The notes under the pieces were generated by a model. That model was not told where the DNA came from, searched no databases, and saw nothing but the letters and a program-made list of their open reading frames with translations. Positions 1 to 42,646 of a stretch of 42,646 nucleotides of DNA are shown piece after piece. The stretch covers positions 1 to 42,646 of IMG/VR virus record IMGVR_UViG_3300047320_000349; one strand, written 5' to 3'. Each line of letters opens with the position of its first letter. Position 1 is the stretch's first letter. Source of the stretch: a virus. A program made the translations under genes and the position numbers.

Positions 1-1191
1 TCAGCGCGCCGGCAGCGCCGGCACCGGCGCCCGTGCCAGCGCTTTCGGCACCGTGTGCTTTTTACGAAGATTGGCCTGGGCGAACAGGAACAGCATCCAC
101 ACCGGCGCCTCGTAGTAATACATGCGCGAATTCATCGGCATCGCAAAGATGACCATGGTGAGCAGGATGCCGTTGAAACAGGCGACGCGATAGAACAGCA
201 CCGCCAGCACGATCCCCACCAGCAGACCGCCGCCGCTGATCAGGTTGAAGGTGACGCCCAGGTCCTGGAAATGGCAATCGACGCAGGGTGGATGCTCGTA
301 GCCGAGCCCGATGATCTTGTCTTCCCAGCCGGTGTCCAGGTAACTAAACAGCCCGGTTTTCCAGATCGACAGGCTGCCGTCGTCGTTGTGGGCGAAGCGT
401 TCGTTCAGGTGGTCGATGATGTTCGAGGATGCCAGGAAAGCCAGGATGAACACGAACAGCGCCAGCACGTGCCAGATCCTGATGCGGTGGCTCCACAGTT
501 GCGGCAAGAGCAGCAGCATCACGCAGGTGAAATAGACGGAGGTGGCCGAACCTGTCAGCAGCAAGGTCAGCACCGTGAGGATCGCGATCCAGTACACCCG
601 CTTGCTGTAGCCTGAGGTGAACAGGAAGACGGCCAGCAGGAAAGCCGTGTTGTTGGCATAGGTACCCGGCTCCACCTGCAGGCCGGAAAAGCGGTTGATG
701 CCGACGAAATCGACCGCCGCCCGGCTCGGCGAATTGAACACCATCTCGTGCAGGTCGACGATCGGCCCGCCCAGCAGGTAGAACATGGCAACCTGCACGA
801 ACAGGGCCCCGATGCTGATCACCAATAGCCAGGTCACGGCGGTGTTGAACTCGCGCGGCCAGCGCTTGCCGGCTTCATACACCAGCACCGCACTCAGGAT
901 ATTGGCGCCGACGAAGAAGGGATAGATGAAGGACACGCGCCGGAACACGGTGGTGTGCAGGAAGATGATGCCCAGCCCCATCAGGATATAGACCGAAGGC
1001 TCGGTGATCCGGATCGGCCGCGCCAGCATGATGGGCAGCAGGCACAGCATGGTGACAGCCACCGCGAAGTAGCGCGGCCACATGGTGTTGGTGAGGCGGT
1101 CTTCGAAAGGTACGTAGAGCAGGAACACGGCGCCAAAAAAGGCGACCGCGACCGCAACGGAACGAACATTCCATGGTTGGGCGTGGCTCAT
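1..1191 (-). CDS. O-antigen ligase/polymerase-like polytopic membrane protein
   Basis: The 396-residue protein is almost entirely hydrophobic, with about ten membrane spans separated by short polar loops and one large outer loop near residues 260-310. That layout fits the Wzy/WaaL/exopolysaccharide polymerase class, which joins or ligates lipid-linked glycans in the inner membrane. The loop pattern, including a polar motif VEPGTYANN around residues 172-180 before a membrane span, resembles O-antigen ligase family proteins, but no decisive catalytic motif can be read. The stop codon is at the window edge and the ATG is at 1191, so the gene is complete. It reads away from the phage and has host-like GC content. 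It is probably part of a surface-polysaccharide locus continuing to the left. The exact sugar substrate cannot be judged. Confidence 0.6.
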   Translation of the reverse strand: MSHAQPWNVRSVAVAVAFFGAVFLLYVPFEDRLTNTMWPRYFAVAVTMLCLLPIMLARPIRITEPSVYILMGLGIIFLHTTVFRRVSFIYPFFVGANILSAVLVYEAGKRWPREFNTAVTWLLVISIGALFVQVAMFYLLGGPIVDLHEMVFNSPSRAAVDFVGINRFSGLQVEPGTYANNTAFLLAVFLFTSGYSKRVYWIAILTVLTLLLTGSATSVYFTCVMLLLLPQLWSHRIRIWHVLALFVFILAFLASSNIIDHLNERFAHNDDGSLSIWKTGLFSYLDTGWEDKIIGLGYEHPPCVDCHFQDLGVTFNLISGGGLLVGIVLAVLFYRVACFNGILLTMVIFAMPMNSRMYYYEAPVWMLFLFAQANLRKKHTVPKALARAPVPALPAR

Positions 1192-1418
1192 CGTCTGTGG
1201 AGTTGCCGCGGCCTGCGGGAGCGGATCGACGCGGTATGCCTACTATCGGGCGGCGGCGACGCGCGAGGTTTGCTCATCCTCAAAGCTCATCAGCTTTGGG
1301 TAAAGCACGCGAACGTCCAAGCAAGCAATTGCTCCAGCTCTTCTGTTTCATTGATGTCAACTAAATATGAAAAATACAAGCGCGCGAGTATTTCCCTACA
1401 CAACCTGGGAGAACTCGT

Positions 1419-1718
1419 ATGACCTTCATGCATATCCGTGATCAGGGCTTGCCGAAACATGCGCTGGGCGAGCGGCGCTTCGACGCCGCGACGGCGGACA
1501 AGGTCCGCGATGCGCTGCGGGCGCAGGGCTTGCAGACAGCGGCGCAGGCGATGGAACATCAGTGCGTCAGCCTGGCCGTTGCCCTGCGGGTACTGGGCGA
1601 GCCGGGGCGGCGCCGCGAAAAACAGGCGGCGCCGGCCGCAGCGCTTGCGCAGGCCGTCACGGAAGCGTGGTACGCCCACTTTGCCGACCTTGCCGAGTTC
1701 ACCGGCTTCCCAGCCTGA
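1419..1718 (+). CDS. Hypothetical protein, 99 aa, upstream of mutS
   Basis: This 99-residue soluble protein has an ATG at 1419 preceded by a good ribosome-binding sequence (GGGAGA, 1407-1412). I do not recognise the family. It is Ala- and Arg-rich and probably mostly helical, with an N-terminal part (residues 20-60) of two or three amphipathic helices and a C-terminal WYAHFADLAEF segment. It lies about 150 bases before the mutS start and points the same way. High GC and position suggest an ordinary host gene rather than phage cargo. Several overlapping opposite-strand reading frames here lack ribosome-binding sites and protein-like composition. Confidence 0.5.
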   Translation: MTFMHIRDQGLPKHALGERRFDAATADKVRDALRAQGLQTAAQAMEHQCVSLAVALRVLGEPGRRREKQAAPAAALAQAVTEAWYAHFADLAEFTGFPA

Positions 1719-1870
1719 CCGAGGCCACACGCCTTCTCGCAAACGGAAGGCGCACCCTGTCGGCGGCGATGCGTTGCCAAACGCGACCGTCCAGCCCTCC
1801 CGACCATTCCCGAACGCGGTAAAATGGCAACCCTGGCCGGCGCCCTGCCCGGCCTCTTGCCTACCTAGCC

Positions 1871-1963
1871 ATGAACGTCCCACGCGAAATCAATGCCGCC
1901 GCGGCCAAAAGCCTCGCGCCCGAAAAGCACACCCCGATGATGCATGGGCGTCTCCCCCTATAG
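1871..1963 (+). pseudogene. mutS: mutS, 5' stub only (about 25 codons)
   Basis: The ATG at 1871 begins a frame whose residues 17-24 read PEKHTPMM, the very conserved start of MutS in betaproteobacteria, where the next residues would normally be QQYLRIKA. Here the match stops at codon 25 (1943-1945); the frame then runs into unrelated sequence and a TAG at 1961-1963. MutS recognises mismatched bases and is normally about 860-890 residues, so more than 95% of the gene is absent from this side. A TAAAAT -10-like sequence at 1820-1825 suggests the native promoter survives. The break marks the left edge of inserted or rearranged DNA. The rest of mutS is not in the window; whether it exists to the right of the integrase is unknown. 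Identification rests on a short but distinctive motif. Confidence 0.7.
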
Positions 1964-2145
1964 AACATGGGGCGCTTTCGCAGAAGTTACGCCGAAACCT
2001 ACGCCACACGTTTCACCCCCTGCAGCAAAATCGTTTTAGCACTACACTGAGTGCAGAGGTTAAAAAGTAACTTTCTATCGCGCGACAGCAACGATGGCAG
2101 GAGCTTAAAATCGCCTCAACAATATTTCTGTTGGAAATTTCCTTA

Positions 2146-2172
2146 TGCTAAGGTACGATTCATACCTAAGCA
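2146..2172. promoter_or_regulatory. 27-bp imperfect palindrome upstream of the 2.2-3.0 kb cassette
   Basis: The arms are TGCT-A-AGGTA and TACCT-A-AGCA around a 7-bp centre, with only the A/A pair unmatched. It sits just before TTGACA (2185-2190), which is followed 17 bases later by an AT-rich ATATGG. The arrangement looks like an operator next to a promoter for the two genes that follow. A shorter hairpin (CAACA/TGTTG, 2117-2133) lies just upstream. The remainder of 1964-2145 shows no gene that I can support. Confidence 0.4.
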
Positions 2173-2184
2173 AAGAATTCGATA

Positions 2185-2790
2185 TTGACAAGACTAAGTA
2201 AGTGTGCATATGGACACTTGATATCGACAACAACGCCCCTATATACAGATCAAAGAGACGTGAAACAGTACGCTATTGCGCAGTTTGATGCGGCAAAATT
2301 TGAGGCTACAAAGGCCGCGTGGTTAGATTCAGCTGAGAGCTTGGGCATCCCTGATCTTGACTATGTGAAGCAGATCGATTGGGTAGCCCTTCATATGGAC
2401 TACGAGACTCAAGGAGACTCCTTCGCATACGGTCTGTTCGATGAAGAAAGCAATGTCGCAGTGGCAACTGTTGACATTGTCTACACTAAGCGATCCACGA
2501 ACGACGGATGGCTTAAGATGCTTCAGCTCTTTCTGGCACCTAAATATGCTCCATCGGTTGTTAGCGCTTCGCCTCAGGTGTTGACTGAAATTTTAGAGAT
2601 CTACGCTAGTTCCATTATCGGTACTGTTGAGTTGACCGGAATCCATCCGGCACGAACTGTGAAGTTGTATGCTCGCAACGACAATCTCATGTCGCTTCTA
2701 GCTGGCGTTCAACAGCGCATCAGTGCGAATGCATCAACCTCTACTACGTGCCGTTTCGAAGGTCGCTTTTTGGTCATTTCTGCAAAGTAA
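2185..2790 (+). CDS. Unknown protein, up to 201 aa, first gene of a low-GC two-gene cassette
   Basis: I do not recognise this protein. The frame is open from a TTG at 2185, but that TTG forms part of a TTGACA promoter-like box, so translation more likely begins at TTG 2218 or GTG 2260; none has a strong ribosome-binding site. The protein is soluble, acidic and mixed alpha/beta. A middle block (residues about 70-105) has the strand-rich look of an acyltransferase fold, and a C-terminal block is helical, but no catalytic motif is visible, so no function is assigned. Base composition is clearly more AT-rich than the host or phage core genes, suggesting recent acquisition. A 59-residue gene follows after 14 bases and is probably co-transcribed. 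The cassette is bounded by the mutS stub and the tRNA-His fragment. Confidence 0.55.
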   Translation: MTRLSKCAYGHLISTTTPLYTDQRDVKQYAIAQFDAAKFEATKAAWLDSAESLGIPDLDYVKQIDWVALHMDYETQGDSFAYGLFDEESNVAVATVDIVYTKRSTNDGWLKMLQLFLAPKYAPSVVSASPQVLTEILEIYASSIIGTVELTGIHPARTVKLYARNDNLMSLLAGVQQRISANASTSTTCRFEGRFLVISAK

Positions 2791-2804
2791 GCTAGGAGAA
2801 TTTC

Positions 2805-2984
2805 ATGAGTTCCAAAATCAATTTCATTACACTTGCTGCAGCTCGCAGCGTTGCTCCTGAATCTTTTGATGCAGCAATCAGGGAAGGCCTAGCTCAGGCC
2901 GCTACAAGTCTTGGAACTAAGGCCGCGCTTGAAGCACTCGGTCAGCAGCACGCATCGAACAAGGTATCTGAAAAAGCAGCTTAA
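2805..2984 (+). CDS. Small unknown protein, 59 aa, second gene of the cassette
   Basis: An ATG at 2805 has a strong ribosome-binding sequence (AGGAGAA, 2794-2800). The 59 residues are rich in alanine and serine, carry no membrane span or signal peptide, and should form one or two helices (around residues 20-48, ending ALEALGQQ). The gene begins 14 bases after the preceding stop, so the two are very likely one operon. A small partner after a larger protein is a layout seen in toxin-antitoxin, RiPP-precursor and defence modules, but nothing in the sequence chooses between them. The family is unrecognised. Confidence 0.5.
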   Translation: MSSKINFITLAAARSVAPESFDAAIREGLAQAATSLGTKAALEALGQQHASNKVSEKAA

Positions 2985-2991
2985 TTAAGGT

Positions 2992-3008
2992 AGCTCGTTA
3001 TGCGAGCT
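2992..3008 (+). terminator. Hairpin after the two-gene cassette
   Basis: AGCTCG pairs with CGAGCT around a TTATG loop, 8 bases after the stop of the small gene. The following bases (TCCCTCTT) are pyrimidine-rich but not a true U-run, so termination here would be weak. It might equally be an attachment-site feature because the tRNA-His fragment starts 16 bases further on. Confidence 0.3.
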
Positions 3009-3023
3009 TCCCTCTTGCGGGTT

Positions 3024-3073
3024 CAGGATTGTGATTCCTGTTGTCGTGGGTTCGAGTCCCATCAGCCACCCCA
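3024..3073 (+). tRNA. tRNA-His 3' half (partial; attachment-site core)
   Basis: The sequence begins exactly at the 5' side of the anticodon stem: CAGGA pairs with TCCTG around the loop TTGTGAT, giving anticodon GTG (His). The T-arm (GTGGG-TTCGAGT-CCCAT) and the acceptor 3' strand CAGCCAC followed by CCCA are intact. The acceptor 5' strand and the D-arm are missing; the bases before 3024 do not resemble them. Truncation at the anticodon stem is the classic product of an integrase that uses a tRNA 3' end as its site, and the integrase at the right end is of the P4 type, which commonly uses tRNA genes. The fragment cannot give a functional tRNA. Confidence 0.85.
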
Positions 3074-3092
3074 AGAATTCAGCAGTAAAAAC

Positions 3093-3132
3093 AACGGGTT
3101 ACAAGCTTTTCAGCTGTAACCCGTTTTTATTT
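3093..3132. terminator. Rho-independent terminator, likely bidirectional
   Basis: A long perfect stem (AACGGGTTACA with TGTAACCCGTT) encloses a loop that itself can pair AGC/GCT. On the plus strand it is followed by TTTTTATTTTT; on the minus strand the far side also gives a run of T after GTTG. It could close the tRNA-His transcript from the left and the gene pair at 3165-3692 from the right. Confidence 0.75.
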
Positions 3133-3164
3133 TTGGAAGATGAATTCCAAATTTTGGAAGATCG

Positions 3165-3401
3165 TCAATCAAGCTGTGATTGCTCCTGAATGACCGGTTC
3201 GTTCTTCAAGTCGCTGCGCAACCGGTCGGCCAGCAGCTGTGCACTGGACGATGTTGGCGTATGCCGTAGGTAGTCATGGGTGCGCAGGGTCAGCGCCCGC
3301 AAGCGAAACACCTCCCATAGGAGCGCGCGCACGTCGTCTGAAGCCCGTGCGCGGTCTTGGATCGCCAGAAGTTCTTCGCGGGTGAGAGGCGCTTTCATCA
3401 T
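3165..3401 (-). CDS. Hypothetical phage protein, 78 aa, in the SOS-boxed pair
   Basis: This small soluble protein is largely helical and charged (LTREELLAIQDRARA near the N-terminus). Two in-frame ATG codons (3399-3401 and 3396-3398) start it immediately after the stop of the upstream gene, with no gap, so it is probably translationally coupled. It shares the single promoter region carrying a LexA-type box at about 3680-3705. I recognise no family. As the last gene before the left attachment region it is in the usual place for phage accessory genes. Confidence 0.55.
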   Translation of the reverse strand: MMKAPLTREELLAIQDRARASDDVRALLWEVFRLRALTLRTHDYLRHTPTSSSAQLLADRLRSDLKNEPVIQEQSQLD

Positions 3402-3692
3402 TCAGTAGCCGATGATTTGGACCGACCATTCTTGCTCATAGCCGGCACCGGACTTATCCCGCTCGATGCCGCGGAATAACATCATGTCGACGCGCATGAG
3501 GGCGAGCTGGGCATGCTCTAGCTGTGGAATGATCGAACGCATATGCTCGTCGTCAGGCTCAACCAGAATCGCGGTCACGATCGAACCAACAGGGCCGACA
3601 CGGAGTTCACCCTCGAATCCGGGATCTTCTGTGATCTCAGCACTCTGCCGGCGGACACCAGCCTCTCGTAGGCATTTGACTATACTGTACAT
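3402..3692 (-). CDS. Hypothetical phage protein, 96 aa, with LexA box over its start
   Basis: The 96-residue protein has an alternating strand/helix pattern with an acidic middle (VEPDDEHMRSI). I cannot place it in a family; it is close to DinI-type SOS modulators in size but lacks their recognisable motifs. The ATG at 3692 lies inside a CTGT-N8-ACAG palindrome, an in-frame stop directly precedes it, and no ribosome-binding sequence is present. A TATACT box ends 6 bases before the ATG, so the mRNA may start at or very near the AUG (leaderless). It is predicted to be repressed by host LexA and induced by DNA damage together with the gene downstream. Confidence 0.6.
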   Translation of the reverse strand: MYSIVKCLREAGVRRQSAEITEDPGFEGELRVGPVGSIVTAILVEPDDEHMRSIIPQLEHAQLALMRVDMMLFRGIERDKSGAGYEQEWSVQIIGY

Positions 3693-3705
3693 TCATACAG
3701 TATAG
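3680..3705. promoter_or_regulatory. LexA (SOS) box
   Basis: CTGT (3685-3688), 8 bases, ACAG (3697-3700) matches the CTGT-N8-ACAG consensus of LexA in gamma- and betaproteobacteria, within a longer dyad TATACTGTA / TACAGTATA. It covers the start codon and the -10-like TATACT (minus strand, 3699-3704) of the leftward gene pair. The outer hexamers CTATAC and GTATAG also resemble the half-sites of the repressor operators at 32.8 and 34.7 kb, but in the opposite relative orientation. Confidence 0.75.
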
Positions 3706-3783
3706 CGCAGCAACATTCGACTGGCGCACCCCTCAGGTTTCCTCTTGCTCCTTTAAGCAGAAAAAGACGGGGACGGCATCAAC

Positions 3784-4572
3784 TTAAAACAATCCCGCAG
3801 GCTCCGCCTGACGATCCCAGCTGTAAATCACTACTTCCGATCGTTCGACCGCGCGGCCGCCTCCGCCAACAGTATAGGTAATGGGGACCGTGTCTATCTG
3901 GAAGCGCGCGAAGATCCTGCGGATTTCAGGATGGTCGTTCAGGCTTATGACAGCCTTACCCTTGAGCCGACTCAGCAAGTCGGCCATCTTCTCGTATTCT
4001 TGCAGCGGGAAATCGACACCGTATCCTTCCGTCTCCCAGTACGGCGGATCCAGGTAAAACAGCGTATGAGGACGATCATAGCGTTCCATCAATTTGAACC
4101 AGTCCATGTTCTCGATAAACGCACCGGACAGCCGCAAGTGCGCTGTCGATAGGTTCTCTTCGATCCGCAAGAGGTTGACTGGTGGCGTAGTTGTCGCTGT
4201 ACCCCAGGTTTGCCCATCGACCTTGCCACCAAATGCGTGCTGCTGGAGGTAGAAGAAACGCACGGCTCGCTGGATATCTGTCAGGGTGTCCGGCGGCGTT
4301 GCTTGGTGCCATTTGAACACCTCCCGACTGGCGAGCGCATACTTGAAGTGCCGCACGAACTCCTCAAGATGGTTTTGCACCACACGGTAGAGGCGGACCA
4401 ACTCGCCGTTGATGTCGTTGATGACCTCGACTTCAGCGGGTGGCCGCATGAAGTACAGTGCTGCCCCGCCCGCGAAGACCTCAACATAGCATTTGTGAGG
4501 CGGGAATTGTGGAATGATGTGGTTCGCCAGACGACGCTTACCGCCGATCCAGGGAATAATTGGGGTTGCCAT
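3784..4572 (-). CDS. Dam-family DNA adenine-N6 methyltransferase
   Basis: This 262-residue enzyme transfers a methyl group from S-adenosylmethionine to adenine in DNA. The order of motifs is that of D12/Dam class enzymes: PWIGGKRRL (residues 7-15) and VEVFAGGAAL (30-39) for cofactor binding, an acidic NDIN (52-55), and the catalytic DPPYW (175-179). Length is normal for the family and no motif is broken. No restriction endonuclease gene is adjacent, so it is an orphan methylase, as is frequent in temperate phages, where it may protect phage DNA or mark replication or packaging sites. The target sequence cannot be read from the protein. It lies beyond the lysis genes, in accessory-gene territory, separated from them by a strong hairpin. 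Confidence 0.9.
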   Translation of the reverse strand: MATPIIPWIGGKRRLANHIIPQFPPHKCYVEVFAGGAALYFMRPPAEVEVINDINGELVRLYRVVQNHLEEFVRHFKYALASREVFKWHQATPPDTLTDIQRAVRFFYLQQHAFGGKVDGQTWGTATTTPPVNLLRIEENLSTAHLRLSGAFIENMDWFKLMERYDRPHTLFYLDPPYWETEGYGVDFPLQEYEKMADLLSRLKGKAVISLNDHPEIRRIFARFQIDTVPITYTVGGGGRAVERSEVVIYSWDRQAEPAGLF

Positions 4573-4669
4573 TAGTAAACCTTAGCGTAGTGTTTAGTGT
4601 TAAACTTCCGCCGCCTCCCGGGAGGTGGCAGAGCTTTGCTTGGTTCACTGGCTGCGTCAGTGTATCGAG

Positions 4670-4703
4670 GCCGGCACGGGTTGTTAGCGCAACTCGTGCC
4701 GGC
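4670..4703. repeat. Strong 14-bp-stem hairpin between Dam and the 107-aa gene
   Basis: GCCGGCACGGGTTG and CAACTCGTGCCGGC form a 14-bp stem with one G.T-type mismatch and a 6-base loop. Neither side has a good T-run (plus strand: GCTCTGTCTTT), so it is at best a weak terminator; it may instead limit read-through or protect mRNA ends between the lysis genes and the methylase. Confidence 0.45.
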
Positions 4704-4712
4704 GCTCTGTCT

Positions 4713-5036
4713 TTATCCCACCATCATGCGAGATGACGGGAGGCCGGCGCTTGCCGACAAATCGTTTTCAAAAGCACGGCACTTGAGGTCGATGGTTTTC
4801 ATTTCCCCATGTCGCTCAAGCATTACGGTCATGACGCCCTGCTCTCTCAGCAGATCGAGCATCTTGGTCCAGGTCTCACGATCGACTTTCCCGACCGCGC
4901 CACATAAATAGACGACCTTATCGGTGAGATGCTTCACCTGGACGATGGCCAAGTACGGCAAACGATTTGCATAACCATTCGGCTGGTCGTAGGCGCGGAT
5001 GCTCGAGCCCTCAGTGGTCATCGTCAGATGTATCAT
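4713..5036 (-). CDS. Hypothetical phage protein, 107 aa, downstream of holin
   Basis: The protein carries the pattern VVYLCGAVGKVDRETW followed by a strand-rich MTVMLERHGEMKTID. I have seen this kind of small protein in other phages at the end of lysis or structural operons, always without a known role. There is no signal peptide or membrane span. Its ATG at 5036 comes 1 base after the holin stop, so it is translated as part of the lysis operon. A second ATG at residue 6 is possible. Its job is unknown; the position would suit a late accessory gene. Confidence 0.6.
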   Translation of the reverse strand: MIHLTMTTEGSSIRAYDQPNGYANRLPYLAIVQVKHLTDKVVYLCGAVGKVDRETWTKMLDLLREQGVMTVMLERHGEMKTIDLKCRAFENDLSASAGLPSSRMMVG

Positions 5037-5037
5037 G

Positions 5038-5559
5038 TCAGGCCACCAGTTTGCTGATCGTCGCGTCCTTCACCTGAGAGCTGCGCGAGCTGCCGAATTC
5101 GAACTGGTGTGCATCACGCAGGCACGCGCCGAAGATGCCGGAGATTGCGGACAGAAGGCCGACCACCTCACCAGGCAATTTCTCCCGGTAGACCACCAGG
5201 ACCACCAGGCAGGCGATCAGGCCAAGCACATCAAGCGCGACCATCACATCGGCGCGGCGGTTGCCGAATCCAGCCTTGTGCAGCTCCACGTCGCGCGCAC
5301 GCGCATCCTGCACGTCGACAAGGAACGCCCGCGTAAGGTCGGCGTCTTGCGCGAGCGCAGCTTGCTGGAATTCCAGAACCTTGTTCGGATCAGCCTTCAG
5401 CACCTCCAGCGCGGCGTCGCCGCTCGGCGCACCGGTGACCGTCTTGGCGATGTCGATCACCTTGCCGGCTACGTCGGCAGCCTTATCGCTGCCGGTAAAG
5501 AATTTAATTAGGGACGGCGCAAACTGCGCCAGGGTCAGGGCCAGGGTAACGGGTTCCAT
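5038..5559 (-). CDS. Holin, 3TM (GTA-type) family
   Basis: The 173-residue protein has a hydrophobic N-terminus (LALTLAQFAPSLIKFFTG), a long helical charged middle, and a C-terminal hydrophobic hairpin (residues about 105-150) with a short turn YREKLPGE. This pattern fits 3TM holins, which make lesions in the inner membrane and set the time of lysis. It sits directly after the endolysin gene with no gap. The C-terminus is polar and presumably cytoplasmic. Assignment rests on topology and gene order. Confidence 0.75.
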   Translation of the reverse strand: MEPVTLALTLAQFAPSLIKFFTGSDKAADVAGKVIDIAKTVTGAPSGDAALEVLKADPNKVLEFQQAALAQDADLTRAFLVDVQDARARDVELHKAGFGNRRADVMVALDVLGLIACLVVLVVYREKLPGEVVGLLSAISGIFGACLRDAHQFEFGSSRSSQVKDATISKLVA

Positions 5560-6120
5560 CTATGCGATCTCCACGCGGTTGAGCAGCCAGCCAAAATAGA
5601 AGTCCTCGTTTTGCAGCCTGGCCTCGGTGATGTCCAGGTAGCGCACGCCCTGCTGGCAATTGAGGGCGCGGAGGATTGCGGTTTCGCCATCGGGGCCGCG
5701 GCGGTCAAGGCAAGCGCGCAAGGCAGCCACAGTGGCCGGCCCGATGCGGCCGTCGACGCCAATGTCGGGATAATCCTTGCCTTGGCGGTTGAGCGCGTTG
5801 AGCACGCGCTGCAGCCATGGACCGGGCAGGCCTGCGCCCTGGTTCACGCCGGTGTCGAACATCTCCGCGGCGATCGGCTGCGACACCGCGTACACCTTGT
5901 CGAAGCCCGGCTTGACCAGATATTCGTTTCGGTAGATGGTCTCGGCTGTGGAGCGAGGCATCATCGACATGGCGCCCACATAGCCATTACGCCGAGCGGT
6001 GGCGGCAGTGATGCCCCACATCGTCTCCCCGCCGGCATCGTTGATGTTGAAGCTGTAGCGGCCCTCCCGGCCGATTAGCTCATCGATCATCTGCTCGATG
6101 CTCTTGCGCGAGGTGGTCAT
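5560..6120 (-). CDS. Endolysin, glycoside hydrolase family 108 type
   Basis: The 186-residue protein begins with a helix, then IGREGRYSFNINDAGGETMWG (broken here only by reading order): the Glu at residue 19 in the EGRYS stretch is the expected catalytic acid of GH108 N-acetylmuramidases, followed by the MWGIT motif at about 34-38. The C-terminal half (residues 90-185) matches the putative peptidoglycan-binding part of the family, with a DGRIGPATVAAL segment. It would cut the glycan backbone of the cell wall. No signal peptide or signal-anchor is seen, so release through the holin is expected. I chose the ATG at 6120 because it overlaps the stop of the upstream gene by four bases (ATGA). Confidence 0.88.
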   Translation of the reverse strand: MTTSRKSIEQMIDELIGREGRYSFNINDAGGETMWGITAATARRNGYVGAMSMMPRSTAETIYRNEYLVKPGFDKVYAVSQPIAAEMFDTGVNQGAGLPGPWLQRVLNALNRQGKDYPDIGVDGRIGPATVAALRACLDRRGPDGETAILRALNCQQGVRYLDITEARLQNEDFYFGWLLNRVEIA

Positions 6121-8294: not shown

Positions 8295-9203
8295 TTACAG
8301 TCCTTCAAATTCAATGTTGAGCAAGTGGTGCTGGGGATAGGTCACGCTGATCCCGAAGTCCTTGTAGAAGCCGTAGCCGATCATCGGCTCGAAGCCGGCA
8401 GTGTCGGTGCCGATATAGATGAGTGGCGTGGCCCGCAGCGCAGCCAGCCGGCGGTAGAGCTTGTTGAAGTCGCCCTTCGCCGTAACCACCTGGAGCGTGC
8501 AGTGCTTGCTGTAATTGCGCTCGACCACATCCCAGTTGCCGAACTCGTCCTTTTCCTTGCGGCTGTAGTCGATGATCCCCACCGACGCGCCGTACTGCGC
8601 GTGCCCGACCTCGATCACCTGCCCTACCTGGAGCACGCCAACTGACACGCCGGCGGTACCGGTCAGCCGCACCGTCATTTCGCACGCGGCGTAATGCTGC
8701 GGCAGGTCCGTCAGCACGAAGTCAGTCAGCTGCTCGAAGTCCGCGTAGAACCATTCGTAGACGCTGGTGACCACTCGCCCATCGAGGTCGATCGTCTTCG
8801 AATAGACGACCGCACCGCCAGGCGTATCCTTCATCTGGACCAGTGCTTCTCGGCCGGTCAATTCGAGCATGCCCATTCCGGACACCCCACCGGGCCGCAT
8901 AACGAATGTCACGCTGCTGGCCGCCTCCGCGGCCGTGCCGACCTTCCGATCGAACGCCGCCCACCGGTTGGTCGGGCCGATTGCCTTCCAGTTCGTGGCA
9001 TCCGTCTCCGGCGCGCCGGCGGTTTTGCCGTCGACCTTCCGCATGTAGGTGGTGTGCGTCGAAACCCGAATTACCTTGTCCCCAACTTTGTAGGTGGCGT
9101 TCGCGTCCCATGGCACCTCACCTGGGCCAGGCTCCGGCAAGTCCGTGCTGGTCAGCATTGCGTCGGTGATCACCGTCGGCTTGATAATCTTCATACCGCT
9201 CAT
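8295..9203 (-). CDS. Phage tail protein with chitin/carbohydrate-binding-like N-domain
   Basis: The 302-residue protein contains a short N-terminal module (residues 30-75) with WDANATYKVGDKVIRVSTH, the aromatic/YKVGDKV pattern of carbohydrate-binding CBM5/12-like modules, and a longer C-terminal beta-rich part. The start overlaps the tape-measure stop by four bases. In this position lambda-like phages have tail-tip genes (M, L, K, I, J), none of which can be recognised here. The protein is therefore a candidate tail-tip or adsorption component, but that is inferred from order. Confidence 0.5.
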   Translation of the reverse strand: MSGMKIIKPTVITDAMLTSTDLPEPGPGEVPWDANATYKVGDKVIRVSTHTTYMRKVDGKTAGAPETDATNWKAIGPTNRWAAFDRKVGTAAEAASSVTFVMRPGGVSGMGMLELTGREALVQMKDTPGGAVVYSKTIDLDGRVVTSVYEWFYADFEQLTDFVLTDLPQHYAACEMTVRLTGTAGVSVGVLQVGQVIEVGHAQYGASVGIIDYSRKEKDEFGNWDVVERNYSKHCTLQVVTAKGDFNKLYRRLAALRATPLIYIGTDTAGFEPMIGYGFYKDFGISVTYPQHHLLNIEFEGL

Positions 9204-12200
9204 GCAGCCTCCGTAGTGAATTTCAGTTGGTCGCCATCTAAGGCGCGAACGATGCGCGATGTCCTCTCGGTATGCCCAGCAATAGCGCGTGTCTCGACGC
9301 GCAGGCCCTTCACCTCCTCACGCAGCGCTCTGTTCTCTTCGCGCATTGCCCGGAATTCGATCAACAGCGCCGCATTGCCCTGTGCGGGGCTGGCCAGTGC
9401 AGTGAACAACGCCCGGTTGTCGGCCGCCGGGATGATCCGCTCGCCCTTGTGCACCAGGGCGGGCATGTCTTCGGGGATGAAGTTCGTGCCGATCGCGAAC
9501 GGGTGCAGCTTCTTGTACTCGTCCGACTGCTTGATCGAACTGCGAATAGCGTCGATGGACTGGCCGGACTGCACCCAATATGAGAGGCCGGCGGCATCTG
9601 CCGAGCGCCCGCCCAGAAGCTCCTTGTAGAGCCCCTGAACCTGGGCTTCCATCGAGCCGCTGATCGATTGCACGATGCTGCCGAGCGACTGCCCGGCGGC
9701 AGCTTGGTTGGTCCAGTACTCCATGCCGGCCGCGTCAGGCGTGCGGCCCAGCGAGGTCTGGTAGGCATTGGTGATACCCGCCGTGGCTGCGTTGATCGGA
9801 TCCTTCTGGGCGCCGACCAGGGCAAGCTGGAAGCCGCTCAGCGCTTGGCTGATCGACAGCAGCGTGGTGCTCGACCCTTTCAGGATGTCGACCTGCGCCT
9901 GCGCAGAATTGACCATCAGGTCCAGCTGCTTCACCTGGGCATTCAGCGCGTCCAGCGACTTTTCCTCGACCGACAGCGAGTCGTCGGTGATGCCGGCGAG
10001 GCTCGCCACGTCGTTCTGGGTCTGGTACAGGTCGCGCAGGTAGTCGGTGTAGCTGCTGAATTTGGACGAAGCATCCTGCGTCACCGCGCTCAGTGCGTCC
10101 TTGAGGCTGTCCGCTGCCGGCAGTGGGCCGCCGGCTTTGGCGATTGCCAGCGCGGCGCGGATCTGCGCCTGGCCGACGGCGCGGTCGGCCAGCTTGTCAT
10201 CCGGAGACTTCAGGCTGTCGAGCGTGCTGTGCAGCGACTGGGACAGGCTTTGCAGCTTCGTCACCGATGCCGTGTGCACATCGATGCTGGTCTGGATTGC
10301 CGTCTTTTCGCGGGTCACCACCGACTGCAGGCTGGAGAGCGCCGTGTCGAGCGAATTCATTAGGCCGGACGCCTGGCTTTGCGCCTTGCTGATGGCTTCC
10401 GCTGCGGCTTGCGCCGCCCACAGTTCCTTGGTCGCGGCGGCCATCGCCGGGCTGATGCCTTGCAGGGCCAGCACGTGCTGTTTTTCCAGCACCGCGGCCG
10501 CGCCGGCCTTGTCGCCGAGCGCGTCATAGATCTGCCCCTGAATCTGCAGCAGGTCGCTGATGCTTTCGGCTGCCGGGTGCACTTGGGCGAAGGCATCCGC
10601 CAGCTGCATCATCGATGTGAACTGTTTCGCGCCGGCGTCAGTCGTCAAGTCCAGCGAGGTGACGACCTGCTTGAACTGGTCGCGCGTGGTCACCGACGCC
10701 AGGCCCAGGCTTGCCATCGCCTCCTCGACCGCCTTTTTCACGGGCGCCAATTTCTCGGCTTCGGTCAGGTAGCTCTGCGCATAGCTCGATGCCAGCGACG
10801 TCAGATTCGACGCGCTGCCGGCCAGGTCGACCAGGCGCTCGCGCGCCGCAGCTGATTCGATGCCGACGGCGCCGAACGCTTCCGCCGCGGTCTTGCCCAG
10901 CAGCTGGGCCATCTGCGTGGTCGCATCGAAGTCGCCGGCCAGGCGCTCCAGCGTGCTCGCCGCCGTTTCACCTGTCTTGGAGAACTGCAGGATGTTCGGC
11001 ACCAGCTTGGTCGCCAGCTCGTCGCCGACGCTGGTGAGCAGCTTGGTGATGCCGTCTTCGATCTTGCCGTCTTTGCCCAGGTCGATGCTGAAGGACTTAG
11101 CGTAATCCGAGATCGAGGCCGCGTCGACGCCCAAGCTGGCAGCGAAGGCTGAGGAAACACCCTTGATCTGGTTGAGGCCGTTCGTGACCAACGCCAGGGT
11201 GTCCGACGAAAAAGCCTTGCTGTCGGTGCCATCCTTGTCCGATCGGAACCAGCCTCCATCCTGATGCCACTTCGCGAAGCTCGATGCCGAGATGCTGTCG
11301 CCCGAAATGCTGCCGCTGATCCCGGTGGTCTGAGTCTCCTTATCGCCCATGCCGAACGCACGGTTGATCAGGCCCGACACCCCGCCGACGATTGCGCCAG
11401 CGATCGGGCTGAAGTACGAGGCGACCGCCGTGGCAATCTTCTCGGTCGTCATGAGGCCCGATCCGGTTTCGTACTTGCCGGAGATGGCCGAATTCAGCGC
11501 AGACCCCGCCATGTAACCACCGGCCATCCCTGCAGCGCGGCCAGCCATGCTGGCCAGCGGCGTGAGGGCCTGGCCCGATGCCGTCGCCAGACCCTGCGAC
11601 GCGAGCGGCGTGTGGCCCATGGACGTCATCGCAGACTGCACGCCACCGGCGACCGTATCGGACAGCCCGGCGAAACCACCGCTGATTGCCTTGTACACGC
11701 CCGAAGCGGCACTCACCGCACTCATCAGCGGGTTGCCCCCTATGGCGCCGGGCGCTGCAGTTACGCTGTCGCCAACACCTGAAATGGATGCGCCAGTCGA
11801 GCTGAAGGCAGCGCGGATGTCCAAATAGATCGGCTTGGCCGCCAGTTGCCACAGCCATTCGAATAACCCATTCCCGATCGCCTGCTTGATGCGATCGCGC
11901 GCCGACTTGGCGCCATTCTCCATACTCAGGAAGGCGTCGTGCGCGGCCGACTCGATACCGTCCCACGTCCTCTTCTGCTCATCCAGCATGGGCTTGGCGG
12001 ACTGATTCTGGTACCAGGAATCGAAGTTCTGCTGCAGGATCCGCTGCGCTTCGGTGCCATCGCCAGCAAGACGAATGCGCTCACGCCATATCTGGGCGTC
12101 ATACGACAGTGCGGCGGCAGCGCGCTGCTTGTCATCGGCAATGTAGTCGAGGCCGAACTTCTTGTTTTCTTCAGCCAGCTGGGAGGCGTACTGCAGCGCC

Positions 12201-41344: not shown

Positions 41345-42646
41345 TTACTTGGCATTCGACGCTGCTAATTTCTCATAGTGCGCCGAAAGTCTTGAAAGCC
41401 ATTCAAGCCGCTCGTGGTCATAGCGGTGTAAATTGTAAATTCCCGTTATCCCTGTTGGCATGTGTCCCAACACGGCCTCTGCCACTTCATCAGGACAGCC
41501 AAGCGCGGCCAACTGCGTACGCCCTGTGCGCCGTAGATCGTGCACCGACCAATGCGTCACCGGCAGTCGCGGGCGCTCATATTGGGGACGAGTCTTCGCG
41601 TACGGCTGATGCATCCAAACCATTGCGCTGACGGTCTTCTGCTCGACGTGGCCGCTGCGCCCGTCTGACGGGAACAGATAGCCCGACTTCACCAAGTTGA
41701 GGCGCCGCTGTACGATGGCCTCGGCCCGGCCAACTAGGGGCACGCGCAAGTCCGTCGCGTTGTCACGCCAAGAGTTCTTTGTCTTGGCCTTCGGCACCGT
41801 CCACCATAGACCATCGTTTTCGCGCGTAACGTCGTCAACTTCCATATCGAGGATCTCGCTACCCCGGGTGCAGGTCCACATATAGAGCGTGACCACATCT
41901 TCGACCATCCGCGAAAAATTCGGCAGCCAGCGAATAAGCGTGCCAATTTCATCCGGTGACAGCACACGCTTGGCAGTGCCGATCGACTCGCCCTCGCGCA
42001 CGCGGCCCTTACTGCGCAGCTTGCCACGCATGATCTGGCGCCACCAGTTCGGAACTTCCTCGTCCAACTTTCCGGCGTCATGCCCATAGTCCCATGTGGC
42101 GCCAAGCTCAGCGCGCAGCCGACTCGCCTGGACTGGTGTGTCAAGATAGCTCTCGAGCAGACCGAACGCCCTGGCACGTGTCACCTGCACCGGGTCAAGA
42201 TTGGCGAACTCCGGGTGGTCATCTAGTGCGCGGGCGATGGTGCGGCGAGCCTCGGCGGCGCTCTTTTCGTTACGATTGCGATCAATGTGGCCCTCCAAGT
42301 ACATCGTGCACAGCGATCGCACGCTAAGCCGACGCGAGGCCGCCTCCCGCGCCTTGGCCATCGCTTCCTTTTCCTCCTGTCGCCCAGCGCGGCGCTCGGC
42401 CGCAGGGTCGCGGCCTTCAGCGCGTATGTCCCTCAGCTTTTCCCACTCGGCAGTTGCAGCCGAGATCGACAGCTTTGGCCAAGTGCCAATCTTTACCTGA
42501 CGCATGCGATCGTCGACAGGGCTCTTGTAGCGGTAGATCCACGAGCGTGCCGATGCTGACGCCTCCAATCGGAGTCCGGGACTCTCGGAGATGGTAAAGT
42601 GTTGGCCTGGCTCGAGTAGCTTGGCCGCACGGGCATCGAATGGCAT
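41345..42646 (-). CDS. int: Tyrosine integrase, P4-type
   Basis: The 433-residue protein has an arm-type DNA-binding N-domain (residues 1-90; SPGLRLEASASARSWIYRYK is the typical GLxLxV..W..RY pattern), a core-binding domain (about 110-215) and a catalytic domain. The catalytic residues are Arg261 (CTRGSEIL), Lys near 288, His369 and Arg372 (HDLRRTG), His395 (GHMPTG) and the nucleophile Tyr404 (GIYNLHRY). All are intact, so it should be active. P4-type enzymes usually recombine at tRNA 3' ends, in line with the tRNA-His fragment at the other end. The start codon is the last base triplet of the window, so the attachment site and promoter are outside. Confidence 0.93.
   Translation of the reverse strand: MPFDARAAKLLEPGQHFTISESPGLRLEASASARSWIYRYKSPVDDRMRQVKIGTWPKLSISAATAEWEKLRDIRAEGRDPAAERRAGRQEEKEAMAKAREAASRRLSVRSLCTMYLEGHIDRNRNEKSAAEARRTIARALDDHPEFANLDPVQVTRARAFGLLESYLDTPVQASRLRAELGATWDYGHDAGKLDEEVPNWWRQIMRGKLRSKGRVREGESIGTAKRVLSPDEIGTLIRWLPNFSRMVEDVVTLYMWTCTRGSEILDMEVDDVTRENDGLWWTVPKAKTKNSWRDNATDLRVPLVGRAEAIVQRRLNLVKSGYLFPSDGRSGHVEQKTVSAMVWMHQPYAKTRPQYERPRLPVTHWSVHDLRRTGRTQLAALGCPDEVAEAVLGHMPTGITGIYNLHRYDHERLEWLSRLSAHYEKLAASNAK

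Follow-up and report, generated by a model that had tools for sequence, protein, structure and literature searches.

The stretch of DNA analyzed here (the window), an IMG/VR virus record of 42,646 bases, most likely contains a temperate tailed phage that lies within mutS and exchanges the promoter and N-terminus of this gene rather than abolishing it, a reading to which we assign a probability of about 0.9. In the proposed model, a mutS-specific tyrosine integrase would insert the phage at an attB site within the HTPMMQQ codons of mutS. The host promoter region and the first 24 to 25 mutS codons (1871-1944) would then remain on the left side. On the right side, outside the record, the phage attP arm would be joined in frame to ATGATGCAGCAG and the rest of mutS, so that a near full-length MutS would still be encoded. 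The phage arm would supply mutS with a new upstream region, start codon and N-terminal leader, and excision would rejoin the native start to mutS in frame; together, these two steps would make the event an exchange of mutS promoter and N-terminus. The stub of mutS, the exact break, the phage end with its arm motifs and the integrase were observed directly in the window. The phage-supplied start, the intact sole mutS and the attP junction were observed in relatives, from which we infer the same right junction, and mutS expression, in this host.

Both ends of the record coincide with gene ends: a host stop codon starts at base 1, and the integrase start codon ends at base 42646. The record thus looks trimmed at gene borders, and both prophage junctions need not be inside it; since it is cut at the integrase start codon, the right junction falls outside. 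An ATG at 1871 opens a frame reading MNVPREINAAAAKSLAPEKHTPMM followed by HGRLPL-stop, and this host-derived mutS frame closes 30 codons past its start (stop at 1961-1963). BLASTN of window positions 1-6000 against the intact mutS locus of Herbaspirillum sp. SJZ107 (NZ_VFNH01000002, here L002) gave a single colinear match at 1-1944 (78.4% identity over 1954 columns, E=0). This match stops exactly at ATGATGCA, the codons of the HTPMMQQ motif, whereas L002 itself runs on as an 898-aa mutS; its native start reads MNVPREINADAAKRLATEKHTPMM, compared to MNVPREINAAAAKSLAPEKHTPMM in the window. Among 62 genomes of the same genus that were searched, many matched the window as far as 1942-1944. The unbroken alignment ending at ATGATGCA identifies 1871-1944, at the level of sequence, as the true 5' end of mutS and 1944/1945 as the left junction. 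Chance is ruled out, since the stub has the start, the frame and the upstream neighbors of a real mutS. An earlier note on this DNA had proposed that mutS is cut after about 25 codons beside a prophage, leaving a MutS N-terminus, and this was borne out; the unrelated DNA that it reported past the break proved to be the phage end, with arm-type motifs at positions conserved in the relatives. The stub is best read as the attL site of the prophage and not as a dead gene, and it is no evidence of a mutator. The features are collected in Table 1.

Table 1. Coordinates of host and phage features in the window
Feature	Position	Strand	Basis
Host chromosome left of prophage	1-1870	.	Colinear with L002 (alignment 1-1944), 78% identity
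O-antigen-ligase-like gene, host	1-1191	-	Pfam Wzy_C below cut-off
99-aa ORF, host, upstream of mutS	1419-1718	+	
mutS upstream region, host	within 1-1870		
Host-derived mutS 5' end, start codon to ATGATGCA, orphaned by insertion	1871-1944	+	L002 alignment
att core ATGATGCA, left junction attL	1937-1944	+	Core at both ends of eight relatives with both ends read
Phage left end (attP arm)	1945-2010	+	Aligned with 10 other left ends
Putative arm-type integrase motif 1, AGTTACGCCGAAA	1988-1992	+	Offset +51 from core, kept in relatives
Putative arm-type integrase motif 2, ACCTACGCCACAC	2000-2004	+	Offset +63 from core
Tailed-phage body (DNA methylase, lysis, tape measure, portal, large terminase, primase, CII-like regulator)	3170-40259	.	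PHROGs/Pfam
Tyrosine integrase, mutS-specific clade; start codon is the record's last codon	41345-42646	-	Pfam Arm-DNA-bind_3, Phage_integrase

We then compared the phage end with those of the relatives. Window positions 1925-2005 were 78% identical to the attP of a circular record (G001, L015). Most left ends, including that of the window, carried the motif (C/T)TACGC at offsets of about +51 and +63 relative to the core, and a pair at this spacing was unique within the window. On the integrase side, similar arm motifs recurred in the relatives near -158, -189, -231 and -243 from the core. Letters before the core follow the left partner and letters after it follow the right partner, indicating that crossover takes place in or beside ATGATGCA. 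The IHF consensus WATCAANNNNTTR was found, with at most 1 mismatch, at exactly -42 in 15 of the 16 phage-supplied leaders, and an IHF-like site was also present at -72/-73 in many of them. A perfect consensus within 80 nt was seen in 7/16 leaders, compared to a mean of 0.036 in shuffles, although these leaders are related to each other and do not count as 16 independent ones. Given these sites within the leader, the apparently conserved codons of the new N-terminus (DQ.LT, NQEV) may reflect DNA sites and not protein function. A LexA box was absent from the 13 leaders examined, and scanning the left end for consensus promoters yielded no excess over chance. The idea that the phage leader alters the conserved His of HTPMMQQ was dropped, since native starts of the relatives also carry V or I at this position.

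The rest of mutS had been suggested to lie directly right of the prophage. This was the case in relatives, where it follows just beyond the integrase; the right junction of the window itself is outside the record. L004 encodes a 76% identical integrase, and past the start of this gene comes mutS, in the opposite orientation, with the new start MDLPKDMPLDQRLTDTGKNKITPMMQQYLRIK and the element-supplied leader MDLPKDMPLDQRLTDTGKNKI. The mutS frame was open for 864-896 codons after the core in all 14 lysogens with a complete gene, each with the FYELF and Walker A motifs, and the gene after the core was the only MutS_I gene of each genome. Its start was element-supplied in 13 of the 14, roughly 8-26 codons before TPMM depending on the start candidate. 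Several phage leaders had a weak Shine-Dalgarno sequence or none, and those of G297 and G236 had only a GTG at the usual start position. Values of dN/dS for mutS in the lysogens (0.06-0.45) are consistent with purifying selection; this is weak evidence, since they also cover the time before integration. The element of the exception, G294 (L095), has decayed and its integrase is broken; here mutS is preceded by a 192-bp copy of the host upstream region and start (89% identical), and this duplication again gives mutS a host-type start. The two copies lie one at each end (reverse complement 349-540 and 9026-9217). Another decayed element (G264, L096) carries a phage-type MutS leader joined to its left end in place of a host-type stub (reverse complement about 560-620), which suggests a trace of a former tandem array.

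Simulated excision, in which the flanks were joined, restored an in-frame native mutS in 8/8 lysogens. The attP junction was found in three relatives. Such a junction requires either a circle formed by excision or copies arranged in tandem, and the latter could also account for it in these relatives, to which its observation is confined. G001 is a circular metagenome record with overlapping ends, an attP and an integrase 84% identical to that of the window. In the isolate G201, the junction was on contig C62, and G203 had two tandem 36,756-bp copies together with a separate 36,844-base contig with overlapping ends. Excision is not clean in every case, since it leaves a 2-bp deletion in Vibrio splendidus 12B01 (PMC5296598).

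A reading compatible with the exchange of promoter and N-terminus, such that both can hold, is that integration and excision actively regulate MutS level or function and produce a controlled mutator state, as in SpyCI or 12B01. This would fit a single gene with two alternative upstream regions and N-termini, the attP forms in three relatives, the overlap of the phage leader with integrase-arm and IHF-like sites, and two precedents (PMC5296598 and PMC3430984). However, excision gave an intact native gene in 8/8 relatives, so that both states encode MutS, and the 13 leaders lacked a LexA box; we consider such regulation improbable. The earlier note had likewise proposed that excision turns repair on or off, and neither of the two states is clearly off. 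Alternation of mutS between a host and a phage promoter is possible. It is doubtful, though conceivable, that the phage leader has a dual use, as MutS N-terminus and as attP arm, with binding of the intasome or IHF setting mutS expression; the two IHF-like sites of the leader (-42 and about -73 relative to the core) adjoin integrase arm sites.

The note had also raised loss of mismatch repair. A constitutive mutator, in which insertion simply destroys mutS, would agree with the host-derived frame stopping 30 codons in, but it is very hard to reconcile with the open, sole mutS after the core in 14/14 lysogens and is highly improbable. With an intact sole mutS in relatives, an element-supplied start and in-frame excision, loss of mismatch repair appears unlikely, and the host very probably keeps a functional mutS. 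An assembly chimera joining a phage end to a host mutS fragment could be envisaged for an IMG/VR record of which the assembly quality is not given, but its likelihood is negligible, as independent relatives, several represented by multi-megabase contigs, have their junction at the identical 8 bases, and the arm motifs are at conserved offsets.

The exchange of promoter and N-terminus assumes an integrase specific for mutS, and the window carries this integrase together with terminase, portal and tape measure genes (PHROGs/Pfam), as is typical of temperate tailed phages. Integrase neighborhoods were counted in family and order genome samples. In the family, 20 of 295 genomes had an integrase match at E<=1e-60, and 15 of the 20 were mutS-type; mutS-type elements were thus present in about 5% of the sampled Oxalobacteraceae genomes (15/295). 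All genome integrases at least 59% identical to that of the window (13/13) were at the same mutS site: 12/12 with flanks present adjoined mutS by tblastn, and G201 was assigned via its att contigs. By this comparison with genome integrases, the window integrase belongs to a mutS-associated family. At 51-56% identity, five integrases adjoined mutS and that of G578 did not; among phages in this range, Aval carries the core, whereas KS9 does not. Below 51%, none adjoined mutS in the genomes sampled. Thus, mutS adjacency tracks integrase identity, and target specificity follows the integrase clade.

Further elements were seen in the left part of the phage. Window positions 3021-3131 contain the 3' half of a tRNA-His with following bases and a terminator-like hairpin; the half tRNA with its following bases (60 bp) is 98% identical to the tRNA-His of G007. 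The decayed mutS element of G264 also contains this half-tRNA, as does Burkholderia phage Magia (MT701587), where it lies beside a tyrosine integrase. It resembles a vestigial attP from an ancestor with tRNA-His as its target, which would imply that the integration module was exchanged. We considered the tRNA-His half (3021-3080) as a candidate attachment site of this prophage but discarded it, given that host sequence gives way to phage sequence at 1944 and that the element is delimited by mutS in the relatives. ARAGORN predicted no tRNA in the window. Two plus-strand ORFs of no known family (201 and 59 aa; 2185-2984) immediately follow the orphaned mutS start and may be transcribed in the lysogen from the host mutS promoter; profile and homology searches found no relatives of the ORF at 2185-2790. 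A perfect LexA-type box, TACTGTACATTCATACAGTA, is present at 3683-3702, at the start of a minus-strand 96-aa ORF (3402-3692) that has distant relatives in L016 and L094.

Mobile-element insertion at this spot of mutS, with an element-supplied start, has been known since 2017 (PMC5296598). Chu et al. reported that mobile elements occupy the HTPMMQQ motif of mutS in members of the Beta- and Gammaproteobacteria and that these elements, which include prophages such as that of B. multivorans CF2, supply the mutS promoter and start (PMC5296598). Excision was shown by PCR in four strains, a 2-bp scar with hypermutation being found only in V. splendidus 12B01 (PMC5296598). The element described here resembles theirs in its site inside the HTPMMQQ codons, found in the window and its relatives, in an integrase adjoining mutS, in an orphaned host start far from the integrase (1871-1944 matching the L002 native start), and, judging from the relatives, in a start and upstream region probably supplied by the element (seen there except in the decayed G294) and in the possibility of scarless excision. 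It differs in belonging to tailed phages of Oxalobacteraceae with the core ATGATGCA, and the 2-bp deletion of 12B01 is not predicted by the eight relatives. In our literature search, integration within mutS was named only in PMC5296598. The parallel that the earlier note drew with the S. pyogenes mutL island stands as a functional analogy, but the nearest precedent is instead the work of Chu et al. (PMC5296598). SpyCI likewise is phage-like and occupies the 5' end of a mismatch-repair gene, but its integration separates mutL from its promoter and yields a mutator (PMC3430984, PMC4689407), whereas the present element provides its own start. The intact frame of the sole mutS in relatives argues against SpyCI-type silencing. 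SXT/R391 elements similarly integrate site-specifically at the 5' end of prfC and replace the start of the gene; they differ in being conjugative and in using another gene and another integrase. The isolated Acidovorax phage Aval (OP131589), from another host, has a 55% identical integrase and an attP with the ATGATGCA core that encodes a MutS-like leader ending SEHTPMMH; the paper describing it does not mention mutS (PMC11619371).

The present analysis adds the Oxalobacteraceae phage clade, its core and arm sites, and IHF-like sites within the phage-supplied mutS leader. It also corrects an easy error, since a truncated mutS next to a prophage should not be taken as a mutator, and it identifies isolates, and circular phages from metagenomes, that would allow a promoter swap at a repair gene to be measured. 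If the leader indeed had a dual use, it could couple mutation rate to prophage state.
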